Shown piece by piece: positions 5,142 through 17,630 of a stretch of 64,000 bases of DNA. Made by a program: the position numbers and the translations under genes. How positions within the stretch are numbered: position 1 is the stretch's first letter; every line of letters starts with the position of its first letter. The DNA comes from Paracoccaceae bacterium (GTDB lineage: Bacteria; Pseudomonadota; Alphaproteobacteria; Rhodobacterales; Rhodobacteraceae), in the NCBI GenBank assembly GCA_024636555.1, contig JAGXGW010000016.1, forward strand, positions 1-64,000, given 5' to 3'. Below the pieces are notes generated by a model, which saw nothing but the letters and a program-made list of their open reading frames with translations, was not told where the DNA came from and made no database searches.

Positions 5142-6365
5142 TCAGGCCGAGAGGAACTCGTCCCACTTCTGGATCAGCAGGTCGTACTCGTCCGGCCACT
5201 GGTGCCAGTAGGCCACGTTGGCCGCGCGCTCCTCAAGCGAGCCGCCGTCGCGCAGATCGCCTTCGTTGATGCCGCGCTCGGACGCGCCGACCCAAGGCTT
5301 GCCTTCGTACCAGAACGCATATTTGTCCGGGTCCATGACGTCTTTGACATTCGTGGTGGGCGAATAGTAACCCTGTTCGGACACGGCAATTGCGGGCGGG
5401 CCGGACAGCCAGTAATCGGCATAGGCGGCAACCGCCTCGAGGTTTGGAGAGGTCTTGAGCGGTGCCACACCAATGGCCCAGCCGCGATACCCGCTTTTCA
5501 TCGTGGCGTAGGAGCATTCGACACCCTGCGCCTTGACCGCCATAACGGCAGGCTGCCACGCATCGGCAATCACCATCTCGCCCGAGGCCAGCAGGTTCAC
5601 CAATTCGCCGAAATCGCCCCAGAGGGCCCGGAACTGGCCATCACGCTTCTTGGCGATCAGGAATTTAGCGGCCTCTTCGATGGCTTCCGCATCGGGGTTG
5701 CCGGGGTTGGAGACTTCCAGCAGTCCCAGTTCGTTCATCGCCATGACAGCCTGACCGAAGGCGATCAGCGGATCGACGTTCAGACCGGTTTTGCCGCGGA
5801 ATTTGGAATCGAACAGCGATGACCAGTTGGAGGCTTCTTCGGCCTCGACCAGATCGGGGCGGTAGCCGATGGAGTCGAAGTTATAAACTGTCGGCACCAT
5901 GTTCAGACGTGTCTGGCTTTCGTCTTCCCAGATTTGTCCGACGATCTGCTGGTTCAGCGCCCAACGGTCGGACGGGGTGGTGAAGGTCTCGCGGATGCCG
6001 TCCCAATTCGACAGATCCGAGGCGGCCACAGGGGCCAGTTTGTCGGTGGCAACCATTGCCGCCAGACGCTCGCCGATGATTTCCCAGCAGTCATAGGCAT
6101 CCGTGCCGGACAGGATTTCCGTCTGGGTGTTGGGGAAGATATCCGCCTTGCCGCTGACCGAACCGACGCCTGACTTTTCCTTGAAATCGTTCAGGATGCG
6201 CTCCTGCACGGTCACCGACAGGCCGACGGTGCGCAGCGCCTGATTGCCAAGCTCGGCGGCAAAGGCCTGCTGTGCGCCCATGAAGGGCATGCCTCCAGCA
6301 GCCAGCGCCGCACCACCCGCCGTGGTTTTCAGAAAATTGCGCCTTGAGAAAGTTGAACGTGTCAT
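5142..6365 (-). CDS. Periplasmic PotD-like solute-binding protein, Tat-exported
   Basis: A 407-residue extracellular solute-binding protein. The N-terminus carries a twin-arginine leader (SRRNFLK followed by an Ala/Gly-rich segment, cleavage near AFA at about residue 34). The body matches the spermidine/putrescine-type group, including a late WLSGPPAIAV...YYSPT block that it shares with the leaderless homologue at 11914-13173. It sits between the SDR genes and the ATPase gene and should deliver ligand to the permeases at 7896-9617. Ligand unknown; polyamine, opine-like or amide compounds are all compatible. Confidence 0.92.
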   Translation of the reverse strand: MTRSTFSRRNFLKTTAGGAALAAGGMPFMGAQQAFAAELGNQALRTVGLSVTVQERILNDFKEKSGVGSVSGKADIFPNTQTEILSGTDAYDCWEIIGERLAAMVATDKLAPVAASDLSNWDGIRETFTTPSDRWALNQQIVGQIWEDESQTRLNMVPTVYNFDSIGYRPDLVEAEEASNWSSLFDSKFRGKTGLNVDPLIAFGQAVMAMNELGLLEVSNPGNPDAEAIEEAAKFLIAKKRDGQFRALWGDFGELVNLLASGEMVIADAWQPAVMAVKAQGVECSYATMKSGYRGWAIGVAPLKTSPNLEAVAAYADYWLSGPPAIAVSEQGYYSPTTNVKDVMDPDKYAFWYEGKPWVGASERGINEGDLRDGGSLEERAANVAYWHQWPDEYDLLIQKWDEFLSA

Positions 6366-6430: not shown

Positions 6431-7186
6431 TCAGTAGCGCCCGACCATAAGCCCACCATCCACAGCAATGACTTGTCCCGTCAGATACCGGGCGGCATCC
6501 GACGCGAGAAAGACGATGACATCGGCGATGTCATCGGGTTGCCCAATGCGCCCCAGCGGGACGATATCGCCCACGGTTTTGGCGCCCTCGGGCCCGAGAG
6601 AGTGTTTTTCCGACAGCAATTGCGCGGTGCGGATATAGCCTGGTGCCACCCCGTTCACGCGGATGCCGCTACGGCCCAGTTCCACGGCGAGACCGCGCAC
6701 AAGGCCCACCACGCCCGCCTTGGCGGCGGAGTAGTGCACGTGTTCATCCCAGCCATAGGCCACGCCCATGATCGACGACAGGCACACAATAGAGCCCGCG
6801 CCGCGCGCCTTCATGCTGGCGGCGGCGGGGCGGATCACGCGAAGCATGCCTTTGAGATCGATGTCGAAGGTGTGATCCCATTTCTCGTCGGTCAGTTGTT
6901 CGAGCGGAACGCGGTGCGCGATTCCTGCATTGGCGACGATGGTGTCGATCCGGCCAAAGCGGGTTTCGATATCCTTGACCACCGCATTGGCGCGGGCTGT
7001 GTCGCGCACATCAAGGTGCTGGAATTCGGCTTGTCCGCCGGCTTTGCGGATTTCCTGCACGGCGCTGCGGCCCTCGTCCTCCAGCACATCGGTGATGACG
7101 ACATGGTCGCCCCGTGCGGCCAGCGCCTTGGCGGCGGCGCGTCCGATGCCGATACCGGCACCTGTGATCAAGGCAACTGGGGTCAT
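6431..7186 (-). CDS. Short-chain dehydrogenase/reductase, distal copy
   Basis: A 251-residue classical SDR. Seen: TGAGIGIGRAAA cofactor-binding motif near residue 7, NAGIA, catalytic Ser followed by YSAAKAG (Tyr-x3-Lys), and the C-terminal AVDGG motif. It is an NAD(P)-dependent oxidoreductase of an alcohol or keto group. The ATG at 7186 overlaps the stop of the preceding SDR gene (ATGA), with GGAG upstream. It probably performs a step in catabolism of the compound taken up by the flanking transporter. Confidence 0.93.
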   Translation of the reverse strand: MTPVALITGAGIGIGRAAAKALAARGDHVVITDVLEDEGRSAVQEIRKAGGQAEFQHLDVRDTARANAVVKDIETRFGRIDTIVANAGIAHRVPLEQLTDEKWDHTFDIDLKGMLRVIRPAAASMKARGAGSIVCLSSIMGVAYGWDEHVHYSAAKAGVVGLVRGLAVELGRSGIRVNGVAPGYIRTAQLLSEKHSLGPEGAKTVGDIVPLGRIGQPDDIADVIVFLASDAARYLTGQVIAVDGGLMVGRY

Positions 7187-7899
7187 AGCATCACATCTCC
7201 TGAGTTTGGTGACAGGGTCTGGCCCACGTAAATGCGCGCCGCGTCCGAGCACAGAAAGGCGACCGTGGCGGCCACGTCTTCGGGTTCGCCGAAATGGCCA
7301 AGCGGCAGTTCGGCGGCTTTCGCGCGGCGCCAGTCATCTGACAAAGCGCGCACAAGCGGGGTGTTGATCGGTCCAGGTGCCACCGCATTGACGCGCACAC
7401 CCTGCGCCGAGACCTCGCGCGCCAGCGCCTTGGTCATGCCAATGATGCCCGCCTTGGCGGCGGAGTAATGCACCAGTTCGATCCCGCCGATCTGGCCGAG
7501 TTGCGAGGCCATGTTCACGACGCAGCCGGATTTCCGCGCCAGCATGTGCGGCAGCACGGCATGGGTGCACAGGAAAGTGCCGCGCAGATGCACCGCGATC
7601 ATGCGGTCGAAATCGGCAGGCGTCAGGTCGGTAAAGCGGGCCTGATGCACATGGCCCGCATTGTTCACCAGATGGGTGGGCGCGCCATAGGCTGCGATGC
7701 AGCTCTCCACCATGCGGGTGACATCGGCCTCGTCGGACACATCCCCCTGCACGGCAAGCCCACCGATCCGCTCTGCAACGATCTGTGCCGCCTCGCCGTT
7801 ATAATCATTCACCACGACGTTATAGCCTGAAGCCGCCATAGTTTCCGCGATGGCCTGCCCGATGCCCGAGCCTGCGCCTGTGACAATGACCGTGCTCAT
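7183..7899 (-). CDS. Short-chain dehydrogenase/reductase, proximal copy
   Basis: A 238-residue classical SDR with TGAGSGIGQAIA near residue 7, NNAGH, YSAAKAG catalytic Tyr/Lys, and a C-terminal end that replaces the usual DGG with NSGD. It is clearly related to the next gene, so the pair may be a duplication with diverged substrate or cofactor use. Its start overlaps the stop of the permease gene by 4 bases and its stop overlaps the next start, so the three are translationally coupled. Confidence 0.93.
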   Translation of the reverse strand: MSTVIVTGAGSGIGQAIAETMAASGYNVVVNDYNGEAAQIVAERIGGLAVQGDVSDEADVTRMVESCIAAYGAPTHLVNNAGHVHQARFTDLTPADFDRMIAVHLRGTFLCTHAVLPHMLARKSGCVVNMASQLGQIGGIELVHYSAAKAGIIGMTKALAREVSAQGVRVNAVAPGPINTPLVRALSDDWRRAKAAELPLGHFGEPEDVAATVAFLCSDAARIYVGQTLSPNSGDVML

Positions 7900-8747
7900 G
7901 CGATATCTTCCTGCATGGCCATCCGCTTGGCGCGGCGCACGCTCAACGCCATCAGGATGCCGTAGACCGCCAGGAGCGCGAAGGAGAACAGGGTGGTCAG
8001 CACGCCGAAGGCAAAGATGTTGGGGTGAATTTCCACCGAGAAGGTGCCGTAGATCGCCAGCGGCAAGGTCTGGTCGCGGCCCGAGGCAAACAGCGTGCGG
8101 GGGAATTCGTCAAAGCTGAGGGTGAAGGCGAACAGCATCGCCGACAGCACGCCCGGAAAGATCAGCGGGAAGGTCACCTTGCGGAAGGTGGTGATCGGCG
8201 ACACGCCAAGCGACCACGAGGCCTCCTCGACCGAGGCGTCGAACCGGTTGAGGATCGCCAGCATCACCAGAAAGGCGAAGGGGAAGGTGTAGACGACATG
8301 GGCCACAAAAGCTGTGCTCCACCAGTTGCGATCTATCCCGATCACGTTGTTGGACAGCAGCGAGATCCCCAGCCCGGTCAGAACGCCCGGCACCATCATG
8401 CCCAGCACGATCAGGTAGAACACCACACTTGCCCCGCGGAAATGTTTGCGGAAGGCTTGGGCGGCCATCACGCCCAGAACGGTGGCGGTGACCATGGTCA
8501 TGAAGGCCAGCGTCAGCGAGCGGATCAGCGCATCTCCCACCGGCAGCGGCGCGATGCGCGAGGGCGGTACCATGCCGAACAGGTGGCGATACCAGTAAGT
8601 GGACCATTCGATGATCGGGAACTGCGGGCCACCCTCCGGGCCTTGCTGGAAAGAGATGATGCCCAGCACAATGAAGGGACCATAAAGAAAGAGGATGAAC
8701 AGGCCCACATAGACAGCGAGCACAGGTTTCATGATCTTGGATTCCAT
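7896..8747 (-). CDS. ABC importer permease, PotC type
   Basis: A 283-residue inner-membrane permease with about six membrane spans. The cytoplasmic EAA loop is seen as VEEASWSLGVSP at about residues 175-186, followed by a PLIFPGV motif typical of PotC/PotI permeases. Its start is 3 bases after the stop of the PotB-type gene and its stop overlaps the first SDR gene. It should form the translocation pore with the 8751-9617 product. Confidence 0.93.
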   Translation of the reverse strand: MESKIMKPVLAVYVGLFILFLYGPFIVLGIISFQQGPEGGPQFPIIEWSTYWYRHLFGMVPPSRIAPLPVGDALIRSLTLAFMTMVTATVLGVMAAQAFRKHFRGASVVFYLIVLGMMVPGVLTGLGISLLSNNVIGIDRNWWSTAFVAHVVYTFPFAFLVMLAILNRFDASVEEASWSLGVSPITTFRKVTFPLIFPGVLSAMLFAFTLSFDEFPRTLFASGRDQTLPLAIYGTFSVEIHPNIFAFGVLTTLFSFALLAVYGILMALSVRRAKRMAMQEDIA

Positions 8748-8750
8748 CGC

Positions 8751-9617
8751 TCAAATCTCCCGTTTCAGATCAACGATGCGCAGGAAACCGGCAACAACGA
8801 TGCCAAGCAGGATGGTCAGGACCACCCCGGCAACCGAGGCCATGGCCCATTTCAGCGTGCCGACCTGCGTGACGATGATGTTGCCCAGAAGGTTCACCTT
8901 GCGGCCCGACAGCGCGCCGGAGGTCGCGAATTCGCCCAGCACCATCACGCTGACGAAGATTGCACCGACCACGACACCGGGCAGGCTGAGCGGAAAGATG
9001 ATCTTCCAGAAGATGCGGCCAAAGCCTGCGCCCAGATCGCGGGCGGCTTCGATGATGTTGCGGTCGATCCGGCCCAGCATGAAGGCGATGGGGCCCACCA
9101 TGAAGACCACGTAGATCTGGGTCATGCCGATGATCACCGACAGTTCGGAGAACAGCAGCACCTCGATCGGTGAATCGATCAGCCCCGCCTTTTGCAGCAG
9201 GATATTGATGGCCCCTTCGCGCCCCAGCATGGGCCGCCACGCCAGCACGCGGATCAGGAACGATGTCCAGAAAGGGATCACACAAAGGACCAGCAGCACG
9301 GTCGCCACGGTTTTGCTTTTGACCAGCAAGCCCACGAACAGGGCGGCGGGATAGCCGATCAGGAAGGTCAGCGTCAGCACGATCAACCACAGGCGGATCG
9401 TTGTCCAAAGTGCGCCGACATAGGCATCCGAGGAAAAGAAATTGCGCCAGCTGTCCAGCGTCAGTGTCGGGTTGATCGCAAAGGTCGTCTGGGTCCAGAA
9501 GGACACATAGACAATCATCATAATCGGCGCGACGAGGAAAAGGATCATCCAGACCACGCCGGGTGCGAGAAGCTGGAATGAATGTGACTTTTGCCTGTTG
9601 GTGCTGGGGGCACTCAT
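8751..9617 (-). CDS. ABC importer permease, PotB type
   Basis: A 288-residue permease with about six membrane spans beginning near residue 14, and an EAA loop seen as IIEAARDLGAGFGR. The ATG at 9617 overlaps the stop of the upstream ATPase gene (ATGA), which fixes this start over a longer reading. It pairs with the next gene's PotC-type permease; together they serve the Tat-exported binding protein at 5142-6365. Confidence 0.93.
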   Translation of the reverse strand: MSAPSTNRQKSHSFQLLAPGVVWMILFLVAPIMMIVYVSFWTQTTFAINPTLTLDSWRNFFSSDAYVGALWTTIRLWLIVLTLTFLIGYPAALFVGLLVKSKTVATVLLVLCVIPFWTSFLIRVLAWRPMLGREGAINILLQKAGLIDSPIEVLLFSELSVIIGMTQIYVVFMVGPIAFMLGRIDRNIIEAARDLGAGFGRIFWKIIFPLSLPGVVVGAIFVSVMVLGEFATSGALSGRKVNLLGNIIVTQVGTLKWAMASVAGVVLTILLGIVVAGFLRIVDLKREI

Positions 9618-10699
9618 CTTGCCATCTCCTTGCCGAATACTATCGCCTGTTCGGGGTCCCACGAGAGGATGTAATCTTGTCCGACCGTCATCTCGCGCGG
9701 CTCGCCAAAGCTCAGATGGTGATCCACCTCTACGGTTTTGTGGTCTGCTGTCTCGAACAGGAAGATGATCGACGAGCCCAGATATTCGCTCGCCAGAAAG
9801 CGCGCGGGCAGGGCCGGACCGGGCAGGGCGGCGGTCTCTGTGTCGAAGATCTGCGTGCGGTCATAGCGCACGGCATAGACGTCCCTTTCGTTGGCACGCA
9901 CTGCGGGCACAGATACTGCGCCAAAGCTGCCGCGGAACGTGCCGTTTTGCAGCTTGCCGTCGAACAGGTTGTAACGGTTGAGAAAAAGCGCCACATCCGA
10001 GGAGTTGGGGCTGTCGTAGATCTCGTCGGGTGTGCCGTACTGGATGATCCGCCCCTGATCGAGCACCGCTACCTTGTCACCCATTGCCAGCGCTTCGGTC
10101 TCGCTGCCTGTCACATGCAGGAAGGTCACGTTGAGCCGTTCGCGGATGGCGCGCAGTTCGGTCTGCATCCGTTCGCGCAGGTTGGCATCCAGCGCGCCCA
10201 AGGGCTCATCCAGCAAAACCAGTTTGGGCTGCATGACGAGCGAGCGGGCCAGCGCGACACGTTGTTTCTGGCCGCCTGATATCTGGTCGGGGCTGCGGTC
10301 TTCCAAACCGGAAAGGCCGACCATCTCGATATTGGCGCGCACCCGCTCGGTGATCTCGGCCTCGGTCACTTTGACAGGTCCATTACGCAAGCCGAAGGCG
10401 ATATTCTCGAAAATGGTCAGGTGCGGAAACAGGGCGAAGTTCTGGAACACAAAGCCGATGCCGCGCTCGTGGGCGGGCAGGTCTGTGATGTCGCGCCCCT
10501 GAAACCAGATACGCCCGCTGTCGGGTTTCTCGAACCCCGCGATGACCCGCAAGAGCGAGGTTTTGCCCGATCCCGACGGACCCAGAAGGGCGATATAGCT
10601 GTTGTTTTCTGCCGTGAAATCAATGTGGTCCAGCGCGACCAGCGGGCCATAGCTGCGCGTTATGCCGTCTAGTCGGAATATGGGATCACTGCGCGTCAT
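9614..10699 (-). CDS. ABC importer ATPase of the PotA type with a degenerate H-loop
   Basis: A 361-residue ATPase with C-terminal TOBE-like region. Walker A GPSGSGKTS, signature ISGGQKQR and Walker B LVLLDEP are intact, but the switch histidine is missing: the usual VTHDxxEA segment reads VTGSETEA. The first gene of the operon; ATG at 10699 follows GAGGG, and a TTG one codon earlier is possible. Together with the canonical ATPase at 3955-5070 this suggests an asymmetric ATPase dimer with one impaired site. That pairing is inference; two ATPases serving one permease pair is unusual for Pot-type systems. Confidence 0.9.
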   Translation of the reverse strand: MTRSDPIFRLDGITRSYGPLVALDHIDFTAENNSYIALLGPSGSGKTSLLRVIAGFEKPDSGRIWFQGRDITDLPAHERGIGFVFQNFALFPHLTIFENIAFGLRNGPVKVTEAEITERVRANIEMVGLSGLEDRSPDQISGGQKQRVALARSLVMQPKLVLLDEPLGALDANLRERMQTELRAIRERLNVTFLHVTGSETEALAMGDKVAVLDQGRIIQYGTPDEIYDSPNSSDVALFLNRYNLFDGKLQNGTFRGSFGAVSVPAVRANERDVYAVRYDRTQIFDTETAALPGPALPARFLASEYLGSSIIFLFETADHKTVEVDHHLSFGEPREMTVGQDYILSWDPEQAIVFGKEMAR

Positions 10700-10796
10700 C
10701 AAGCCCTCGTTCAGTCAGAAAAAGCACCGGACATGGGACGTCCGGTGGATCATGCTGCGCCCCGCTCGTTGGGTGGCACAAAATGTATAACGTATG

Positions 10797-10831
10797 AAAT
10801 GACTGATTGTGTGTGTTTGCAAGAGTCATTT
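10797..10831. promoter_or_regulatory. Inverted repeat in the promoter region of the transporter operon
   Basis: AAATGACT (10797-10804) and AGTCATTT (10824-10831) form exact 8-bp arms separated by 19 bases, in the AT-richer 234-bp gap upstream of the first transporter gene. An adjacent TATAACGTAT element lies at about 10785-10795. This is a reasonable operator for the GntR regulator encoded immediately upstream, but binding is not shown. Confidence 0.45.
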
Positions 10832-10933: not shown

Positions 10934-11917
10934 CTATACTTTCGACAGATATTTCGGAAGCGACTCGCTTTCCGGGATCAGCGCCACGATCTTGAGTCGG
11001 GCGAGACTCTTATAGGACAGGATGCGCAGATGCTCTTGCAAGAAGGCGGTTGCAGCATTGATCTGGCGTGCGCCGATGAGTTGAAAAAGCGCGCCGTATT
11101 GATCGAGCGCCACCGTATCCACGGGCAGGCCCAGATCGCTGAGCGCCTTGTCCATCGCGGATAAAAGCAGGCGGTTGTTGGTGATCACCTCGATCAATGC
11201 GGCATTGGGTGCGCGGCCCAGACAAAAGCGCATCAGCGCATCTTCAAGCTCGGCGGCATCCTTGGTCTGTCCTGTGTTGATCTGTGCAAGCACTCGCGCG
11301 ATCTGGCCATAATCTATGAAATCGGCAGCCAGCCGGAGGGCGGCGGGCTCCATGATGCTGCGAAGCTCGAATTTTTCCTGAAGCGTGCGGGCGGTCAGCG
11401 GGCCAGCCAGCCAGTTCGAGGCGGCCCCCTTGCGGATCAGGCCACGTTCGTTGAGGCGGCTGAGCACGTCACGCGCCACGGTGCGGCTGACCCCCAGATG
11501 GTTGGCCAGTTCGGTCTCGATCACGCGGAATTCGCCGAAGATCTGGCAGGCGGCGATTTCCGCCTCGACGCGGTCATACACGCGCAGCCATGTGCCGCGC
11601 ACGGCCAAGGCGGATTGCGAGGCGGCGGGGATGTCAAAGTCGAAATCATCCAGCGGGCGGCGGATCGGGGCCGGCCCGCGCGAGGCGCGCCCGACCAGAT
11701 AGCCGCGCCCGCGAAAGCGGTGGATCAGACCCTCGGCATTCAGCATCCGCAAGGAGGCCTGCACGGGGGCGCGGCTAGTCTGCATCAGCTTGGCGATCGG
11801 GCCTTCGACCAGCACCAGACCTTCGGGCAGACGGCCCGACACGATGTTGTGGCGCAACACACGCGCGATGGTCTCATAGAGTGGCTCTTGCCCCTGTGGT
11901 GCGGGTTTCGGCGTCAT
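10934..11917 (-). CDS. GntR/FadR-family regulator with two winged-helix domains
   Basis: A 327-residue transcription regulator. Seen: a first GntR-type winged helix at about residues 13-76 (ending in LNAEGLIHRFRGRGYLVG), a linker, a second winged helix at about 112-172 (ending LNERGLIRKG), then an all-helical FCD-like domain at about 178-315. Standard FadR proteins have one DNA-binding domain. In the FCD region the usual metal-binding FHxxL segment reads LMRFCLG and the later His is also replaced, so a metal-dependent ligand pocket looks lost. The ATG at 11917 overlaps the stop of the leaderless binding protein gene, coupling the two. Confidence 0.88.
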   Translation of the reverse strand: MTPKPAPQGQEPLYETIARVLRHNIVSGRLPEGLVLVEGPIAKLMQTSRAPVQASLRMLNAEGLIHRFRGRGYLVGRASRGPAPIRRPLDDFDFDIPAASQSALAVRGTWLRVYDRVEAEIAACQIFGEFRVIETELANHLGVSRTVARDVLSRLNERGLIRKGAASNWLAGPLTARTLQEKFELRSIMEPAALRLAADFIDYGQIARVLAQINTGQTKDAAELEDALMRFCLGRAPNAALIEVITNNRLLLSAMDKALSDLGLPVDTVALDQYGALFQLIGARQINAATAFLQEHLRILSYKSLARLKIVALIPESESLPKYLSKV

Positions 11918-13173
11918 GACGGACGCGTCCCCAAGGCGGCGATGAAGCGGGTCCATGCGCGGGCGGCGTAATTGTATTCGTCCATCACGGTGTTCCACAG
12001 CGCGATCCGCCCGACACGTTCGCGGTAAGCGCCGCCCGGACGGCGCTGGCCGGCCCGGACCACGATGCGCCCGTCCGGGCCTTTGAGATCGCACAGGGCG
12101 ATGTCGCCCTCGTACCAGTACCCCCATTCCTCGGGGCTGAGATATTCGCGCACGCCTTCGGCATTGGTCATGTAATGGCCTTGCCGCGCCATGATCGCGC
12201 CCGCGGGGCCAGCGAGCCACCAGTTCAGGTAGTCATAGGCCATATCCAGCTTGGCCCCGTCCAGGTGTCGCGCCAGCGATGCGCCGCCATGCCAGGCGCG
12301 GTAGCCCTCACGCGGGACACTTTCGCAGAACACGCCCTGCATCGCCCCAAGGTTGCTGTAGGAGGGCGACCACATGCTCTGCACCGAGACCCTGTCATTG
12401 CGGATCATGGTTTCGGCTTGCGCGGGTGTCAGCCAGCTGCCGACGAAAAAGCCCTGTTGGCGCAGGGTTTCGAGCAGCGCCATCAGGCTGTCGATCTCGT
12501 CCACCGTCATGTTGCCGATGTCCTGAAAGGTCAGATCGCCATTCGCCTCGGCGGCAAGCGCCGCGTCGAAGATACCGATGGCGGGTTCATCCACCAGCGC
12601 GATGCGTCCGCGGGCGCGGCGGTCCAGCAGCCAGGCCCAGCTTGCGCCCTCGGGGCCCTCATCCCCGAACAGGCGGCGGTCATAGCCGAAACTGTCGACG
12701 TTATGGGCGGTGGGCAACATGCTGATCATCGGCATCGGCTGCTGGCCCAAAGTGCCGTCAGGCTGGACATAAAGCTTGCGCACGGGCGCGTCGCCATGTC
12801 CCTGCCATGTGTATTTGCTGATGCCGCCTGCCTTTGACAGATCGCCGATATTCTCCCATTGCCGGATGCGGGCGGTATCAATCGGCTGCAATGCGCCCCA
12901 GTACCAGACGATATCGAGGTTGTGGAAACACTGCTCGTAGATGTCGTAAGCCAGAGGGTCCATCGCAGCGCGATACTGGCAGGTCAGAAAATCCAGCGTC
13001 TCGTAGACGATGTCGATGCCCAGATCGGCCTCGGCCAGTTTGCGGACCTCTTCCAGCAAGGTGACATCGGTGCCACGCACGTGCAGCACGCGGCGTCTGG
13101 CCTGCGCAGGCGCGGCGAGTTTCTGCCCGGCCAGTCTGAGCGCGGGACGCGGGGAGGCGGATATTCCTGACAT
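11914..13173 (-). CDS. PotD-like solute-binding protein without an export signal
   Basis: A 419-residue protein homologous to PotD-type binding proteins and to the product of 5142-6365 (shared WWLAGPAGAIMARQGHY and YWYEG blocks). The N-terminus is polar and basic (MSGISASPRPALRLAG) and has no hydrophobic stretch, lipobox or Tat motif before the mature domain begins near residue 30. It is therefore likely cytoplasmic. It overlaps the double-headed GntR gene by 4 bases. I infer a ligand-sensing partner for that regulator, as NasS is for NasT. A missed upstream leader or a secondary loss of export is the alternative. Confidence 0.85.
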   Translation of the reverse strand: MSGISASPRPALRLAGQKLAAPAQARRRVLHVRGTDVTLLEEVRKLAEADLGIDIVYETLDFLTCQYRAAMDPLAYDIYEQCFHNLDIVWYWGALQPIDTARIRQWENIGDLSKAGGISKYTWQGHGDAPVRKLYVQPDGTLGQQPMPMISMLPTAHNVDSFGYDRRLFGDEGPEGASWAWLLDRRARGRIALVDEPAIGIFDAALAAEANGDLTFQDIGNMTVDEIDSLMALLETLRQQGFFVGSWLTPAQAETMIRNDRVSVQSMWSPSYSNLGAMQGVFCESVPREGYRAWHGGASLARHLDGAKLDMAYDYLNWWLAGPAGAIMARQGHYMTNAEGVREYLSPEEWGYWYEGDIALCDLKGPDGRIVVRAGQRRPGGAYRERVGRIALWNTVMDEYNYAARAWTRFIAALGTRPS

Positions 13174-13321: not shown

Positions 13322-14293
13322 TCAGCCAAGATGGGCCCGCACATCGGCCAGCATCTTCTTGCGCGCGGCGCGCGCGGCAAGGGCCTCCTCCATATCGACC
13401 TTCTTGAACCTGACCGGCGTGTGCGGTTGCAACTGTCCGATCAGATCCATATCCGCCGAGATGACCGCCCCCAAGGTGAAATACCCGCCGCCCGAAACCG
13501 CATCGCGGTGCAGGACAATCGGCTCCAGGCCGCCGGGCACCTGGACCGAGCCATAGGAATAACATCCGTCCACGATGTTCGACGGATCGGCCCCCGCGCC
13601 GAAGGGCTGTTCGCGTTCGACAAATTCCAAGGGTTTGCCGCCCTTGAAGCGGTAGCCCATCCGGTCCGCCTCCAGCGCCACGGCCCAGTCATCCGCGAAA
13701 AAGCCCTCCTGCGCCGCAGGTGTCAGGCGATGCCAGTACAGGCCCGGCAGTATCCGCAATTCGGCGGGATTGCCGGGCAGGCGGCGCAGGTCCGCAGGGA
13801 CATGCAGCCCCGGTTCGATCATATCGACCTCGCCCAGCGGGATCACGTCACCCGCCTGAATGTTGCGCCCGTCCAGCCCGCCCAACGCCCCGATCGGATA
13901 GGTCGAGCGGCTGCCAAGCGCAGGCGGCGTGTCGATACCGCCGCTGATCGCAATATAGGCGCGCGCCCCGGATTTCAGGAAATCGAAGCTGAGCGTCTGG
14001 CCTGCCTTGATCTCGAACGCGGTCCAGCCGGGTTGCACCACGCCGTCCACCTTGGGCGGCAGGTCGGCGCCTGTGACGGCGACAAGAGCGTCATTCTCGA
14101 AGGTGATGACGGGCCCCATGAACACCACCTCAAGCCCGGCGGCGCCTTCGGGATTGCCCACCAGCATATTGGCCACGCGCAGCGCGAAACGGTCCATCGC
14201 GCCGCCGATCGGGATGCCAAGGTGGAAATAGCCCGGACGGCCCAAATCCTGAATCGATGTCGATAGGCCGGGTTGCATGATTTTAAGCGACAT
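13322..14293 (-). CDS. pxpC: Biotin-dependent carboxyltransferase-family protein (PxpC/KipA-like)
   Basis: A 323-residue KipA-type protein, homologous to 5-oxoprolinase subunit C, to allophanate hydrolase subunit 2 and to the C-terminal carboxyltransferase part of urea carboxylase. Seen: the N-terminal family motif GLSTSIQDLGRPGY at about residues 9-22 and a conserved SVQVPGG-like segment (SYGSVQVPGGLEP). It overlaps the PxpB-like gene by 11 bases. With biotin carboxylase and biotin carrier genes in the same operon, a true carboxyltransferase role is possible, in addition to the ATP-dependent oxoprolinase role known for PxpABC. Confidence 0.9.
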   Translation of the reverse strand: MSLKIMQPGLSTSIQDLGRPGYFHLGIPIGGAMDRFALRVANMLVGNPEGAAGLEVVFMGPVITFENDALVAVTGADLPPKVDGVVQPGWTAFEIKAGQTLSFDFLKSGARAYIAISGGIDTPPALGSRSTYPIGALGGLDGRNIQAGDVIPLGEVDMIEPGLHVPADLRRLPGNPAELRILPGLYWHRLTPAAQEGFFADDWAVALEADRMGYRFKGGKPLEFVEREQPFGAGADPSNIVDGCYSYGSVQVPGGLEPIVLHRDAVSGGGYFTLGAVISADMDLIGQLQPHTPVRFKKVDMEEALAARAARKKMLADVRAHLG

Positions 14294-15158
14294 GGAGCGC
14301 CTCCATCAGTTTTGCATTGGTGCCCTGCATATCCGCGTTGAACGCATCGAGATCAAAGTCGACCTCGGCGATGCGCGGCACATATGTGTCGGCTTCGACC
14401 TCGGCCAGAATGCGGTCATATTCGGCGCGGTCGATGGGCTTCCATTTCACGATGTCGCCGGGTTTGAAGAACACCATGAAATCGCTCAGATAGCTTTGCT
14501 TCTGCTCGGGGTCGAAAATCGGCATCGGGGTGATGCCGAACATCTGGTAGCCGCCCGCCCCGCGCACCGAATAGATGCAGGAAAAGCAGCCGCCATAGCC
14601 CACTGTCTGTTTGGGCGTATCGGTGCGCGGGCGCAGGTATTTCGGCACCTGAAGCTGTTTGTCCCGCTCGACCAGCTGATACAGAAACGGCAGACCCGCA
14701 ACAAAGCCCACCATCGAAACGAACCATGGCTGCGAATGATGCGCCTCGATAAACGCCTCGGCGCTGTCAAAGCCGTTGATCCGCGCGGCGTAGTCCAGAT
14801 CGGTGCCGCTTGGGTCCTGGTGGCGTTCGCGGAACCGCATCAAGGTCTCGTGGGTCCACGGGTCCTGATAGTAGACAGGGATTTCGATGATGCGCGTCTT
14901 GAGGCGCTTGTCGGCATCCTCGGCCTTGTGTTCCAGTTCCTTGACCTTGGCCATCATCTCGTCGGGCGAGATCACATCAGGGTCGAAGCGGACCTGAAAG
15001 GACGCATTCGCCGGACAGATTTCTGTCACGCCCTTGATCTTGGCGTCGCGGACGGCATTGCTCATCGAGAGGGATTTGAAAAACGCATCCAGCGACATTT
15101 CATCGTCCATCTCGACATAGATATGTTCGTCGCCACCGTAGGTATAACGTGTCTTCAC
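14283..15158 (-). CDS. pxpB: PxpB/KipI-like subunit
   Basis: A 291-residue protein of the KipI/allophanate hydrolase subunit 1 family. Seen: the C-terminal family signature around YGGCFSCIYSVRGAGGYQMFG, followed by TPMPIFDP. It is longer than the usual 220-240-residue KipI because of an extended middle region (about residues 90-165). It forms a complex with KipA-type partners in characterised systems. It sits between the biotin carboxylase gene (15 bases upstream) and the PxpC-like gene. The exact substrate is unknown. Confidence 0.85.
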   Translation of the reverse strand: MKTRYTYGGDEHIYVEMDDEMSLDAFFKSLSMSNAVRDAKIKGVTEICPANASFQVRFDPDVISPDEMMAKVKELEHKAEDADKRLKTRIIEIPVYYQDPWTHETLMRFRERHQDPSGTDLDYAARINGFDSAEAFIEAHHSQPWFVSMVGFVAGLPFLYQLVERDKQLQVPKYLRPRTDTPKQTVGYGGCFSCIYSVRGAGGYQMFGITPMPIFDPEQKQSYLSDFMVFFKPGDIVKWKPIDRAEYDRILAEVEADTYVPRIAEVDFDLDAFNADMQGTNAKLMEALHVA

Positions 15159-15173
15159 CGTTGCCTCCTGTGT

Positions 15174-16541
15174 TCAGTGTGTTGGTTTGAGATTTCCGGC
15201 CGCCAGCCATGGTTCAAGCCATTGGGTGTGGATGTCATCGGCGCGCACGTCCTTGTCGCGGGCAAGGGCCAGATGCAGGGCCTTAGTGGTTTTGATGCCG
15301 CCGATCTCGAGTTGCTCCAGCGCGGTGATCAGCAGATCAATTGCCGCCTCGCGTGTGGCCGCGTGCACGATCAGCTTGCCCAGCAGCGAATCGTAGAAGG
15401 GCGGGATCTGGTAGCCCTCGTAGAGGAAGTGGTCAAAGCGGATGTTCTCGCCTGCGGGCAGGGTCAGGGCGCTGATCCGGCCGGGATTGGGCATGAACTG
15501 CAGCATCGGGTCTTCGGCGTTCAGCCGCACTTCGATGGCGTGGCCATTGCGGGTGATATCCTGCTGGCGCTGGCGCAGTTTGCCGCCACCTGCGACATGG
15601 ATCATCTCCTGCACCAGGTCGACGCCTGTCAGCATTTCGGTCACCGGATGTTCAACCTGAATGCGGGTGTTCATCTCGATGAAGTAGAATTCTTTCGTGG
15701 CGCTGTCGTAGAGATATTCCAGCGTGCCTGCGCCGACATATTCGACCGCTTTGGCCAGGGCCACAGCAGTGTCGCACAGATGGGTGCGGGTGGCCTCATC
15801 CAGACAGGCGGCACCGGCCTCCTCCCACACTTTCTGGCGGCGCCGCTGCATGGAGCATTCGCGCTCGAAATAATGCACTGCGTCGGTGCCGTCGCCCATG
15901 ATCTGCACCTCGATATGACGCGGCGCGAGGATCGCGCGTTCCAGATAAAGCCCGCCATCGCCAAAGGCGGCCTTGGCCTCGGCCTGCGCCTGCGGGGCCA
16001 TCTTGCGCAGGTCTTCTTCGGACTGTGCAATGCGGATACCCTTGCCGCCACCACCTGCGGCGGCTTTGATCATCACCGGATAGCCCAGATCGGCGGCGAC
16101 AGCGACAGCGTCATCCACCGTATCCAGCCTGCCTTTGGAACCCGGAACAACGGGCACGCCCGCCGCCTGTGCGGCTTGCCTTGCGGCCACCTTGTCGCCC
16201 ATCCGGTCGATCGTGTCTGCGGAAGGGCCAACAAAGGTGATGCCCGCCGCATCAAGCGCGCGCACGAAACCTGCATTCTCGGCCAGAAAGCCGTAGCCGG
16301 GATGCACCGCATCCGCTTTTGTGGCCTTTGCCGCCGCGACGACAGCCTCCACATTCAGATAGGATTGCGTTGCCTGCGCGGGGCCGATCCAGACCGCCTC
16401 ATCCGCAAGGCGAACGGCCAGCATGTCGGCATCGGCCTCGGAATGAGCCTGAATCGTATGGATGCCCATGGCCTGCGCGGCCCTGATGATCCGCACGGCA
16501 ATTTCACCACGGTTGGCGATCAGCAAGCGTTGAACGGGCAT
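15174..16541 (-). CDS. Biotin carboxylase subunit (AccC family)
   Basis: A 455-residue ATP-grasp biotin carboxylase that charges carrier-bound biotin with bicarbonate. Seen: the glycine-rich ATP loop KAAAGGGGKGIRIA at about residues 158-171, the catalytic ERECSMQRRRQK segment and FIEMNTRIQVEHPVTE. Length is normal for AccC. It is 3 bases downstream of the biotin carrier gene. No acetyl-CoA carboxyltransferase genes accompany it, so it appears dedicated to the KipI/KipA proteins encoded next to it rather than to fatty acid synthesis. Confidence 0.93.
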   Translation of the reverse strand: MPVQRLLIANRGEIAVRIIRAAQAMGIHTIQAHSEADADMLAVRLADEAVWIGPAQATQSYLNVEAVVAAAKATKADAVHPGYGFLAENAGFVRALDAAGITFVGPSADTIDRMGDKVAARQAAQAAGVPVVPGSKGRLDTVDDAVAVAADLGYPVMIKAAAGGGGKGIRIAQSEEDLRKMAPQAQAEAKAAFGDGGLYLERAILAPRHIEVQIMGDGTDAVHYFERECSMQRRRQKVWEEAGAACLDEATRTHLCDTAVALAKAVEYVGAGTLEYLYDSATKEFYFIEMNTRIQVEHPVTEMLTGVDLVQEMIHVAGGGKLRQRQQDITRNGHAIEVRLNAEDPMLQFMPNPGRISALTLPAGENIRFDHFLYEGYQIPPFYDSLLGKLIVHAATREAAIDLLITALEQLEIGGIKTTKALHLALARDKDVRADDIHTQWLEPWLAAGNLKPTH

Positions 16542-16544
16542 GGG

Positions 16545-16781
16545 TTAATCCTTGAGTTCCGCGAAAGGCTCGCCCGCACCGATGGCCGCTCCGTCCTCGA
16601 CCAGATAGGCGCCAAAGGTGCCAGCGGTTTCGGCTTTGACCTCGATAAAGGTCTTCATCACCTCGACCAGCCCGACCACATCGCCCGCGGTCACGGCATC
16701 GCCGGGCTGTTTGAACAAGGCCTCACCGGGGGCGGACTGGGTGTAGAATGTGCCGGGGACGGGGGAAAAGATCTGCGTCAT
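16545..16781 (-). CDS. Biotin carboxyl carrier protein, short form
   Basis: A 78-residue biotinyl domain with the biotinylation motif EVMKTF (Lys at about residue 43) and the flanking Gly-rich hairpins. It lacks the long Pro/Ala linker of AccB, so it is a free-standing carrier domain. It lies between the PxpA-like and biotin carboxylase genes in one operon. It presumably shuttles carboxybiotin between the biotin carboxylase and the KipI/KipA pair. Confidence 0.92.
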   Translation of the reverse strand: MTQIFSPVPGTFYTQSAPGEALFKQPGDAVTAGDVVGLVEVMKTFIEVKAETAGTFGAYLVEDGAAIGAGEPFAELKD

Positions 16782-16805
16782 GGGAGTGCTCCTGTTAAGG
16801 CAGTG

Positions 16806-17585
16806 TCAGAGTGTTTTTGCGATATCCGCCGCCGAGATGATGCGGATTCCGGCGTCAAGAAGGCCCGCGCGGATGGCTTGCCCGATGTGCAACGCGCCGG
16901 GCGTGTCGGAATGAAAACAGATCGATTCGAAAGCGATCTCGATTTCGTCGCCCTCGACCGTGGTGACCATGCCGGTTTTGCAGGCCTTGACGCATTTCGC
17001 GGCGATCTGCGCGGGATCTGGGCGGGCGACCTGCCTGCGGAACACGATGGAGCCGGAATTGTCATAATCGCGGTCGGCGTAGAATTCGCGGATCACCGGA
17101 TGGCCCGCGCGTTTTGCCGCCGCATAGGTTTTGGAGATGCCCATGCAGAACAACAGCGAGTCGGGGCTGGTGGTTTGCAGCGTATCGACCAACATCTGCG
17201 ACAGATCCTCGTTCACCGCCGCCTCCATGTAAAGCGCGCCGTGCAGTTTGATATGCTGCAAGGGCGCGCCGTGGCGGCGGCCGAACTCACGGATCGCGCC
17301 AATCTGGTAGACGATATCATTGATCAGTTCGGCAGTGTCGGTCTTGATATAGCGTCGCCCGAAGCCTTGCAGATCGGCATAGCCGGGATGCGCGCCAAGA
17401 CCGACGCCATGCGCCTGCGCCAGCTTGGCCACGCGGTCCATCGCATTGGGATCGCCTGCATGGAATCCGGCGGCGACATTGGCCGAGCTGATGATTTTCA
17501 TGATCTCTTCATCCGGCGCATCGCCCAGCACCCATTGGCCAAAGCCCTCGCCCATGTCGCAATTCAGATCGACTGCTTCTTTCAT
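16806..17585 (-). CDS. pxpA: LamB/YcsF family protein (5-oxoprolinase subunit A-like)
   Basis: A 259-residue LamB/YcsF protein. Seen: the N-terminal signature VDLNCDMGEGFG, NVAAGFHAGDP near residue 45, and GLGAHPGYADLQGFGRR. PxpA acts with PxpB and PxpC in ATP-dependent opening of 5-oxoproline. The ATG at 17585 gives the canonical N-terminus. It is the first gene of the operon and is divergent from a LysR regulator, with a palindrome in the shared promoter region. Confidence 0.93.
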   Translation of the reverse strand: MKEAVDLNCDMGEGFGQWVLGDAPDEEIMKIISSANVAAGFHAGDPNAMDRVAKLAQAHGVGLGAHPGYADLQGFGRRYIKTDTAELINDIVYQIGAIREFGRRHGAPLQHIKLHGALYMEAAVNEDLSQMLVDTLQTTSPDSLLFCMGISKTYAAAKRAGHPVIREFYADRDYDNSGSIVFRRQVARPDPAQIAAKCVKACKTGMVTTVEGDEIEIAFESICFHSDTPGALHIGQAIRAGLLDAGIRIISAADIAKTL

Positions 17586-17630
17586 GACGCGTCCTTTCGC
17601 TAAGTCACGCATAGCATGGCATCTGAAAAC

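Follow-up and report, generated by a model that had tools for sequence, protein, structure and literature searches.

In the amide-sensing AmiC-AmiR system, a cytosolic protein of the periplasmic-binding-protein fold controls a regulator whose output is transcription antitermination. As described in PMC3795266, NasS has no signal sequence, is predicted to be cytoplasmic, is related to the exported receptor NrtA and senses ligand for a separate regulator; nasS and nasT are cotranscribed, according to PMC5424462. Here we analyse a window of 64,000 nucleotides from a Paracoccaceae bacterium (GCA_024636555.1, contig JAGXGW010000016.1, positions 1 to 64,000), which encodes SBPx, a leaderless solute-binding protein of the PotD/PotF/YdcS fold, and GntR2, an FCD-domain GntR regulator with two winged-helix heads. 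The initial annotation of this DNA had likened the pair to NasS-NasT, and the parallel stands in so far as SBPx is also a leaderless binding protein with a separate, conserved regulator partner. It does not amount to membership in the NasS-NasT or AmiC-AmiR systems, because the partner is a DNA-binding GntR protein in which Pfam found no match to ANTAR. NasT is an RNA-binding REC-ANTAR protein and NasS is NrtA-like, whereas GntR2 combines two winged helices with an FCD domain and SBPx is PotF/YdcS-like. With AmiC-AmiR the pair shares a cytosolic binding-protein fold joined to a regulator; it differs in the class of binding protein, which we take to be another one in AmiC, and in the antitermination output of AmiR. 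Leaderless binding-protein sensors are on record for RNA-binding regulators; for the DNA-binding GntR family there is apparently no such case. Searches of an open-access library gave no fitting description of a GntR regulator with a cytosolic binding-protein sensor and no lead on double-headed GntR proteins; one report that mentions both GntR and a protein that "lacks a signal peptide" (PMC13390454) was set aside as a precedent, as the part of it that was available concerns alginate use.

On the evidence presented here, SBPx is probably a cytosolic ligand sensor and GntR2 its DNA-binding partner, since a binding protein of the export type that has stayed in the cytosol and is found alongside a single kind of regulator is most likely the sensor of that regulator. 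The lack of an export signal in SBPx, noted in the initial annotation, was borne out: read from stop to stop, the frame holds just 16 residues ahead of the ATG, with no hydrophobic segment among them. By a crude rule (a twin arginine plus an uncharged hydrophobic 12-mer, applied to sets that contain near relatives), both signal features were present in 55/55 transporter-linked binding proteins, in 84/84 proteins resembling the exported receptor of the window and in 17/19 proteins of the sister clade described below, whereas among 104 SBPx rows the RR motif was present in 26, the hydrophobic window in 9 and both in 3. None of these three is convincing, the arginines of L058 lying upstream of the start nearest to the domain, as does the entire signal match in L189 and L191, with no start further up in L189 and a TTG in L191. 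A missed upstream export signal is thus ruled out by the frame reading and the rule taken together. By its sequence, SBPx is predicted to be a cytosolic protein, leaderless as one clade and lacking the export that characterizes ABC transporter receptors.

SBPx had no Pfam match at an E-value of 0.1, and its sole NCBIfam match, YdcS, is weak (27.9 bits against a cut-off of 725). Its AlphaFold2 model is confident (pLDDT 91.9) and has PotF, PotD and YdcS as its best PDB matches; the same three proteins were recovered by profile search, at low similarity. SBPx thus has the fold of the polyamine receptors PotD and PotF, and its ligand is probably not a polyamine: in a remote alignment, its glycines G200 and G296 stand at the acidic polyamine contacts of PotD, which we take to be E171 and D257, and this would make such a ligand unlikely. 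R292 (the arginine in EGyRxW) and W294 are invariant in the 42 SBPx and four exported proteins of the alignment. The start of GntR2 and the stop of SBPx share an ATGA, so that the annotated overlap of 4 bases is correct, and for GntR2 Pfam and structure models agree with the annotated two winged-helix domains and FCD domain. Pfam placed two PF00392 (GntR) stretches, the best at aa 13-75, several helix-turn-helix models matched aa 134-164, and the FCD match barely passed its cut-off (25.2 bits against 24.3). This is the layout of the FCD subfamily of the GntR superfamily, with an N-terminal winged helix and a C-terminal FCD domain. In a Foldseek search, the AlphaFold2 model (pLDDT 88.8, pTM 0.66) matched FCD regulators of the VanR (Atu1419) and Tm0439 kind, from which GntR2 differs by a second winged helix in front and, in the lineage of the window, by the loss of the metal site.

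The pair is conserved well beyond the genus. In 394 genomes of the host family, searched with thresholds of E up to 1e-30 for GntR2 and of 488 bits or more for SBPx, GntR2 was found in 26 and SBPx-type proteins in 16, at 17 places (the next match scored 381), and all 16 SBPx-bearing genomes carry GntR2. Some of the 17 places belonged to the query alignment; five did not (G516, G460, G659, G669 and G647). A class search of 385 genomes gave SBPx in two, both with GntR2. Among the remaining GntR2-bearing family genomes, the SBPx gene of G603 (L090) is cut at a contig edge, and in nine others SBPx was not found in the stretches read or in the family search; absence is less sure than presence here, because the whole-genome family and class searches scored at most 4-5 candidates per genome. 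SBPx is kept in Alpha-, Beta- and Gammaproteobacteria. The genome of the window itself has two SBPx and two GntR2, forming two pairs, and the second pair (L023; G000:C38:86698-90837) lies beside hydantoinase genes and another PotD-type transporter.

Among 80 loci of named genomes, out of at least 551 relatives, SBPx is directly upstream of GntR2 in 31, and all 31 show an in-frame ATGA or GTGA overlap of 4 bp. At the other 49, GntR2 lies at the locus edge in seven and is not seen in the fetched stretch in 42; all 14 genomes examined from these loci carry GntR2. The adjacency for which the initial annotation had suggested searching other genomes therefore exists but is lineage-specific: in the Rhizobiales type, seen complete in R. 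johnstonii 3841, SBPx follows CobW near the operon end and GntR2 stands at the head, about 10 kb apart. The idea that SBPx is missing from five loci of the host family (L189-L193) was rejected, further sequence showing it behind CobW in 5/5. Two SBPx loci show no GntR2: the stretch of L303 starts inside the ABC ATPase gene, and the contig of L304 ends just past the amidase, near the expected place of GntR2.

The pair is also independent of the type of transporter. An MFS transporter replaces the ABC transporter at seven pair loci from plasmids and genomes (L279 Paraburkholderia, L280 Halomonas, L281 Acidiphilium, L282 Pantoea, and L305, L306 and L308), Pfam-confirmed in all seven and also in L304, and SBPx follows CobW in most MFS loci. 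In L277 (Agrobacterium MWF001), the pair is beside a Dpp-type ABC transporter with an SBP_bac_5 receptor. Hydantoinase genes are present in both L277 and L023, with no homologues of the pxp, SDR (short-chain dehydrogenase/reductase), deacetylase or CobW genes in the stretch read, and a 7-kb contig (L081) holds the pair and none of the other operon genes. The cut loci L303 and L304 aside, no component other than SBPx and GntR2 recurs in every context examined. Near the Halomonas MFS locus, a short ORF (L280:13522-13764) matches the C-terminal part of the binding-protein family and is possibly a gene fragment.

In the GntR2 tree, 39/39 SBPx-partnered regulators fall on one side of a single branch (support 96/91), opposite 20 without SBPx nearby, where 'nearby' refers to the sequence covered, mostly 7-9 kb to either side of the gene and about 2.7 kb on one flank of L094. 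Four of these 20 (L097, L215-L217) are additional copies whose genomes have a pair as well, and the neighbourhoods of L215-L217 were among those covered. For 39 matched pairs, which span ABC, MFS, adjacent, distant, same-strand and opposite-strand arrangements, the distance matrices of the two proteins are closely correlated (Mantel r 0.914, a value reached in 0/2000 permutations), and the SBPx and GntR2 trees have 25 of 36 splits in common (permuted mean 0.23, maximum 3 in 500). The matching trees show joint inheritance.

The four FCD metal ligands, which we take to be D/E-H-H-H, read E-M-Y-H in the window regulator, in agreement with the annotated absence of the usual metal-binding residues. 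They are E-H-H-H in 20/20 GntR2 without SBPx nearby, whereas 26/39 partnered regulators have lost at least one ligand, so that the loss is restricted to partnered regulators (26/39 vs 0/20). At least two distinct lineages show it, L026/L278 on the one hand and, on the other, a large clade containing the window, in which L201 is intact. As a general condition, the further claim that the regulator has lost its own site is not borne out: 13/39 partnered regulators are intact, the regulator therefore need not have lost its own site, and metal-site loss was discarded as a defining mark of pairing. The decay would fit a sensor role handed over to SBPx, and would also fit sensing shared by SBPx and GntR2. 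Double-winged-helix FCD regulators without SBPx nearby (L091-L101, L103-L108), which belong to a wider uncharacterised regulator family, have intact metal ligands in 17/17 cases and an SDR-like gene beside them in 8/17.

A tree of 69 representatives, from which near-copies were dropped, placed 41/41 leaderless SBPx in one clade (support 97/92), and an earlier tree built without the sister group likewise gave a single SBPx origin. Exported proteins, represented by 11 rows drawn from 15 loci, make up the sister of this clade (100/100 for both together), and the transporter-linked exported proteins fall outside the two. Derivation of SBPx from the operon's own receptor is ruled out by the tree, and the resemblance to that receptor in the initial annotation was overstated: SBPx is 26% identical to the receptor and 33-40% identical to transporter-linked binding proteins of other operons. 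Of 20 relative regions fetched, five were SBPx loci and 15 of the sister kind (L307, L309-L322). In 14 of the 15, the gene immediately adjoining that of the binding protein encodes a histidine kinase; Pfam confirmed this for ten (L307, L309, L310, L311, L315, L316, L317, L318, L321 and L322), and four (L312, L313, L314 and L319) were recognised because they strongly resemble the kinase of L307. The exception, L320, has two short genes first, one of them encoding HAMP and PAS domains, and then a kinase-receiver gene. Nine of the ten Pfam-confirmed kinases are hybrids with a receiver, which the L317 gene lacks. No homologues of the window permeases were found in the 15 sister stretches at the threshold used, and L320 has a distant ABC ATPase match. 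With kinases as their neighbours, the nearest relatives of SBPx have the look of sensors rather than of transport components, and the 15 loci apparently represent a sensory system in other Proteobacteria. SBPx itself shows neither the Tat signal nor the adjacent histidine kinase of that group, no such kinase being seen among its neighbouring genes in the window. The sister clade recalls NspS-MbaA and other exported sensory systems, in which a periplasmic binding protein is used in signalling; there NspS is exported and works with a membrane receptor, whereas SBPx is leaderless and its partner a soluble regulator. The sister loci have Tat-signal binding proteins with the motif LRVLGTHVTL or a close variant, membrane kinases and often a second kinase gene; we take NspS to be PotD-like.

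The leading alternative, which we regard as unlikely though deserving real weight, is that SBPx serves as a cytosolic substrate carrier or as a subunit of a catabolic enzyme, such as the PxpBC carboxylase or a CobW-served hydrolase, with GntR2 simply controlling the same operon. In L082, L083, L087 and L102, SBPx comes after pxpC and GntR2 is on the opposite strand; in Rhizobiales-type and most MFS loci, SBPx comes after CobW. Its place in Rhizobiales beside CobW and the amidase, at a distance of about 10 kb from GntR2, is compatible with an enzyme-linked role as well. These arrangements weigh against a sensor acting on GntR2, and so do three further points. Matching trees are no proof of contact, because genes of one operon share their history; the 13/39 partnered regulators with an intact metal site could sense alone; and the candidate operator described below is not detectable in loci of other arrangements (core scores of at least 13 in 0/11). 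Against the enzyme-linked role, homologues of pxp, CobW, deacetylase and SDR genes are all missing from the stretch read around the adjacent pairs of L023 and L277, the sister clade is linked to kinases, and decay of the FCD site is confined to partnered regulators.

It is quite improbable that SBPx alone acts as an effector of transcription without touching GntR2. The model for such a role, and like NasS-NasT a precedent for the sensor reading too, would be the spermidine-PotD complex, which inhibits potABCD transcription (PMC4951125); in the part of that source available, a PotD-type protein with its ligand likewise affects transcription of an uptake operon, but the transport receptor itself acts and no regulator partner is named, whereas SBPx is separate, leaderless and kept with a regulator. 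Against it, SBPx pairs with one GntR2 clade across unlike operons and shows the 4-bp coupling in every adjacent case. Export by an unusual route, with SBPx as a second receptor of the ABC transporter, is very improbable: the fold is that of a transport receptor, but the leaderless clade has no credible signal where its transporter-linked relatives all have one, SBPx persists in MFS operons, and an exported receptor is already encoded in the window operon. That SBPx is a decaying relic, as the lost signal peptide might suggest, has a negligible chance of being true, being contradicted by purifying selection (dN/dS 0.042-0.092 in four comparisons with relatives, a fifth being unusable, and 0.079-0.129 in five for GntR2; all rough, because dS is about 1 or above), by numerous invariant residues throughout the SBPx family and by its retention in three proteobacterial classes.

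If SBPx is indeed the sensor of GntR2, the operon's substrate or a catabolic product would enter the cell and be bound by SBPx in the cleft used by its exported relatives. Ligand-bound SBPx would close, and the presumed SBPx-GntR2 complex would then be changed or GntR2 released, so that GntR2 might stop or start acting, presumably as a repressor rather than an activator, at the promoter that drives the genes for uptake and catabolism. SBPx would then work in the manner of NasS-NasT or AmiC-AmiR, with DNA binding as the output. We also lean, with less assurance, towards a modular class of control in which a dedicated cytosolic binding protein would be the ligand-sensing subunit of a double-headed GntR regulator, would move with it as a unit between ABC and MFS uptake operons and would share its origin with histidine-kinase-linked sensory binding proteins, the effector site of the regulator being freed to decay. 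Leaderless binding-protein sensors would then serve DNA-binding GntR regulators too, beyond RNA antiterminators, and genes annotated 'extracellular solute-binding protein', as for SBPx on several plasmids, would encode cytosolic sensors. Such a class would also offer a natural series for the change of role of binding proteins, from exported transport receptor to exported kinase neighbour to cytosolic regulator partner, and a possible natural template for DNA-binding biosensors built from binding proteins.

Features of the SBPx-GntR2 locus (positions in the window)
Feature	Position	Strand	Basis
SBPx, leaderless PotD/PotF/YdcS-fold solute-binding protein, 419 aa	11914..13173	-	no export signal, fold, leaderless clade
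GntR2, FCD-domain regulator with two winged-helix heads, 327 aa	10934..11917	-	Pfam, AlphaFold2, Foldseek
GntR2 winged helix 1, aa 13-75	11693..11881	-	Pfam GntR
GntR2 winged helix 2, about aa 113-171, VSRTVAR motif	11405..11581	-	limits by eye on model secondary structure
GntR2 FCD domain, aa 183-298, metal ligands E-M-Y-H	11024..11371	-	Pfam, alignment
ATGA overlap, SBPx stop / GntR2 start	11914..11917	-	sequence
Conserved block TTTCATACGTTATACATTTTG, candidate promoter/operator upstream of the ABC genes	10779..10799	-	alignment
Inverted repeat ATGACT-N19-AGTCAT beside the block	10799..10829	.	alignment
ABC ATPase (ABC1), likely start of the target operon	9614..10702	-	ORF, Pfam
Two ABC permeases	7896..9662	-	ORF, Pfam
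Two SDR oxidoreductases	6431..7899	-	named after annotation of pRL12 homologues
Exported binding protein of the transporter, Tat signal	5142..6365	-	ORF, Pfam
pxpC, pxpB, biotin carboxylase, pxpA: 5-oxoprolinase/urea-amidolyase-type enzymes, upstream, same direction	13322..17612	-	ORF, family models

The region 10779-10829 is a candidate operator for GntR2. In an alignment of the window with ten relatives, the conserved block stands out of an otherwise variable region, and with up to 3 mismatches allowed it has no second occurrence in the window. Its 16-base core, derived from the very sequences scored, reaches a score of at least 13 in 14/18 loci of the window arrangement, a score that 1/580 single-base shuffles attains. 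The inverted repeat beside it is kept in L024, L025 and L109, both arms have changed in step in L077 and L111 (ATGGCT / AGCCAT), and it is imperfect or absent in L113-L117. A hairpin that resembles a terminator and has a T-rich tail is present on the minus strand (10725-10747), between the conserved block and the start of the ABC ATPase; judged by eye, the 11-sequence alignment does not show it as conserved.

The genes of the window follow one another on the minus strand in the order pxpA, biotin carboxylase, pxpB, pxpC, SBPx, GntR2, ABC ATPase, two permeases and two SDR enzymes, then the exported binding protein, a second ATPase, an amidase, a deacetylase-like protein and a CobW GTPase. No description of the operon's pathway was found in the open-access library searched. 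The deacetylase-like (PuuE-like) enzyme and the CobW GTPase (1658-2656 and 333-1298) accompany the operon in many of its ABC and MFS versions, which points to a cyclic amide or imide as a possible substrate. For the deacetylase-like enzyme, matches were found to 3qbu and, less strongly, to the PuuE allantoinase.
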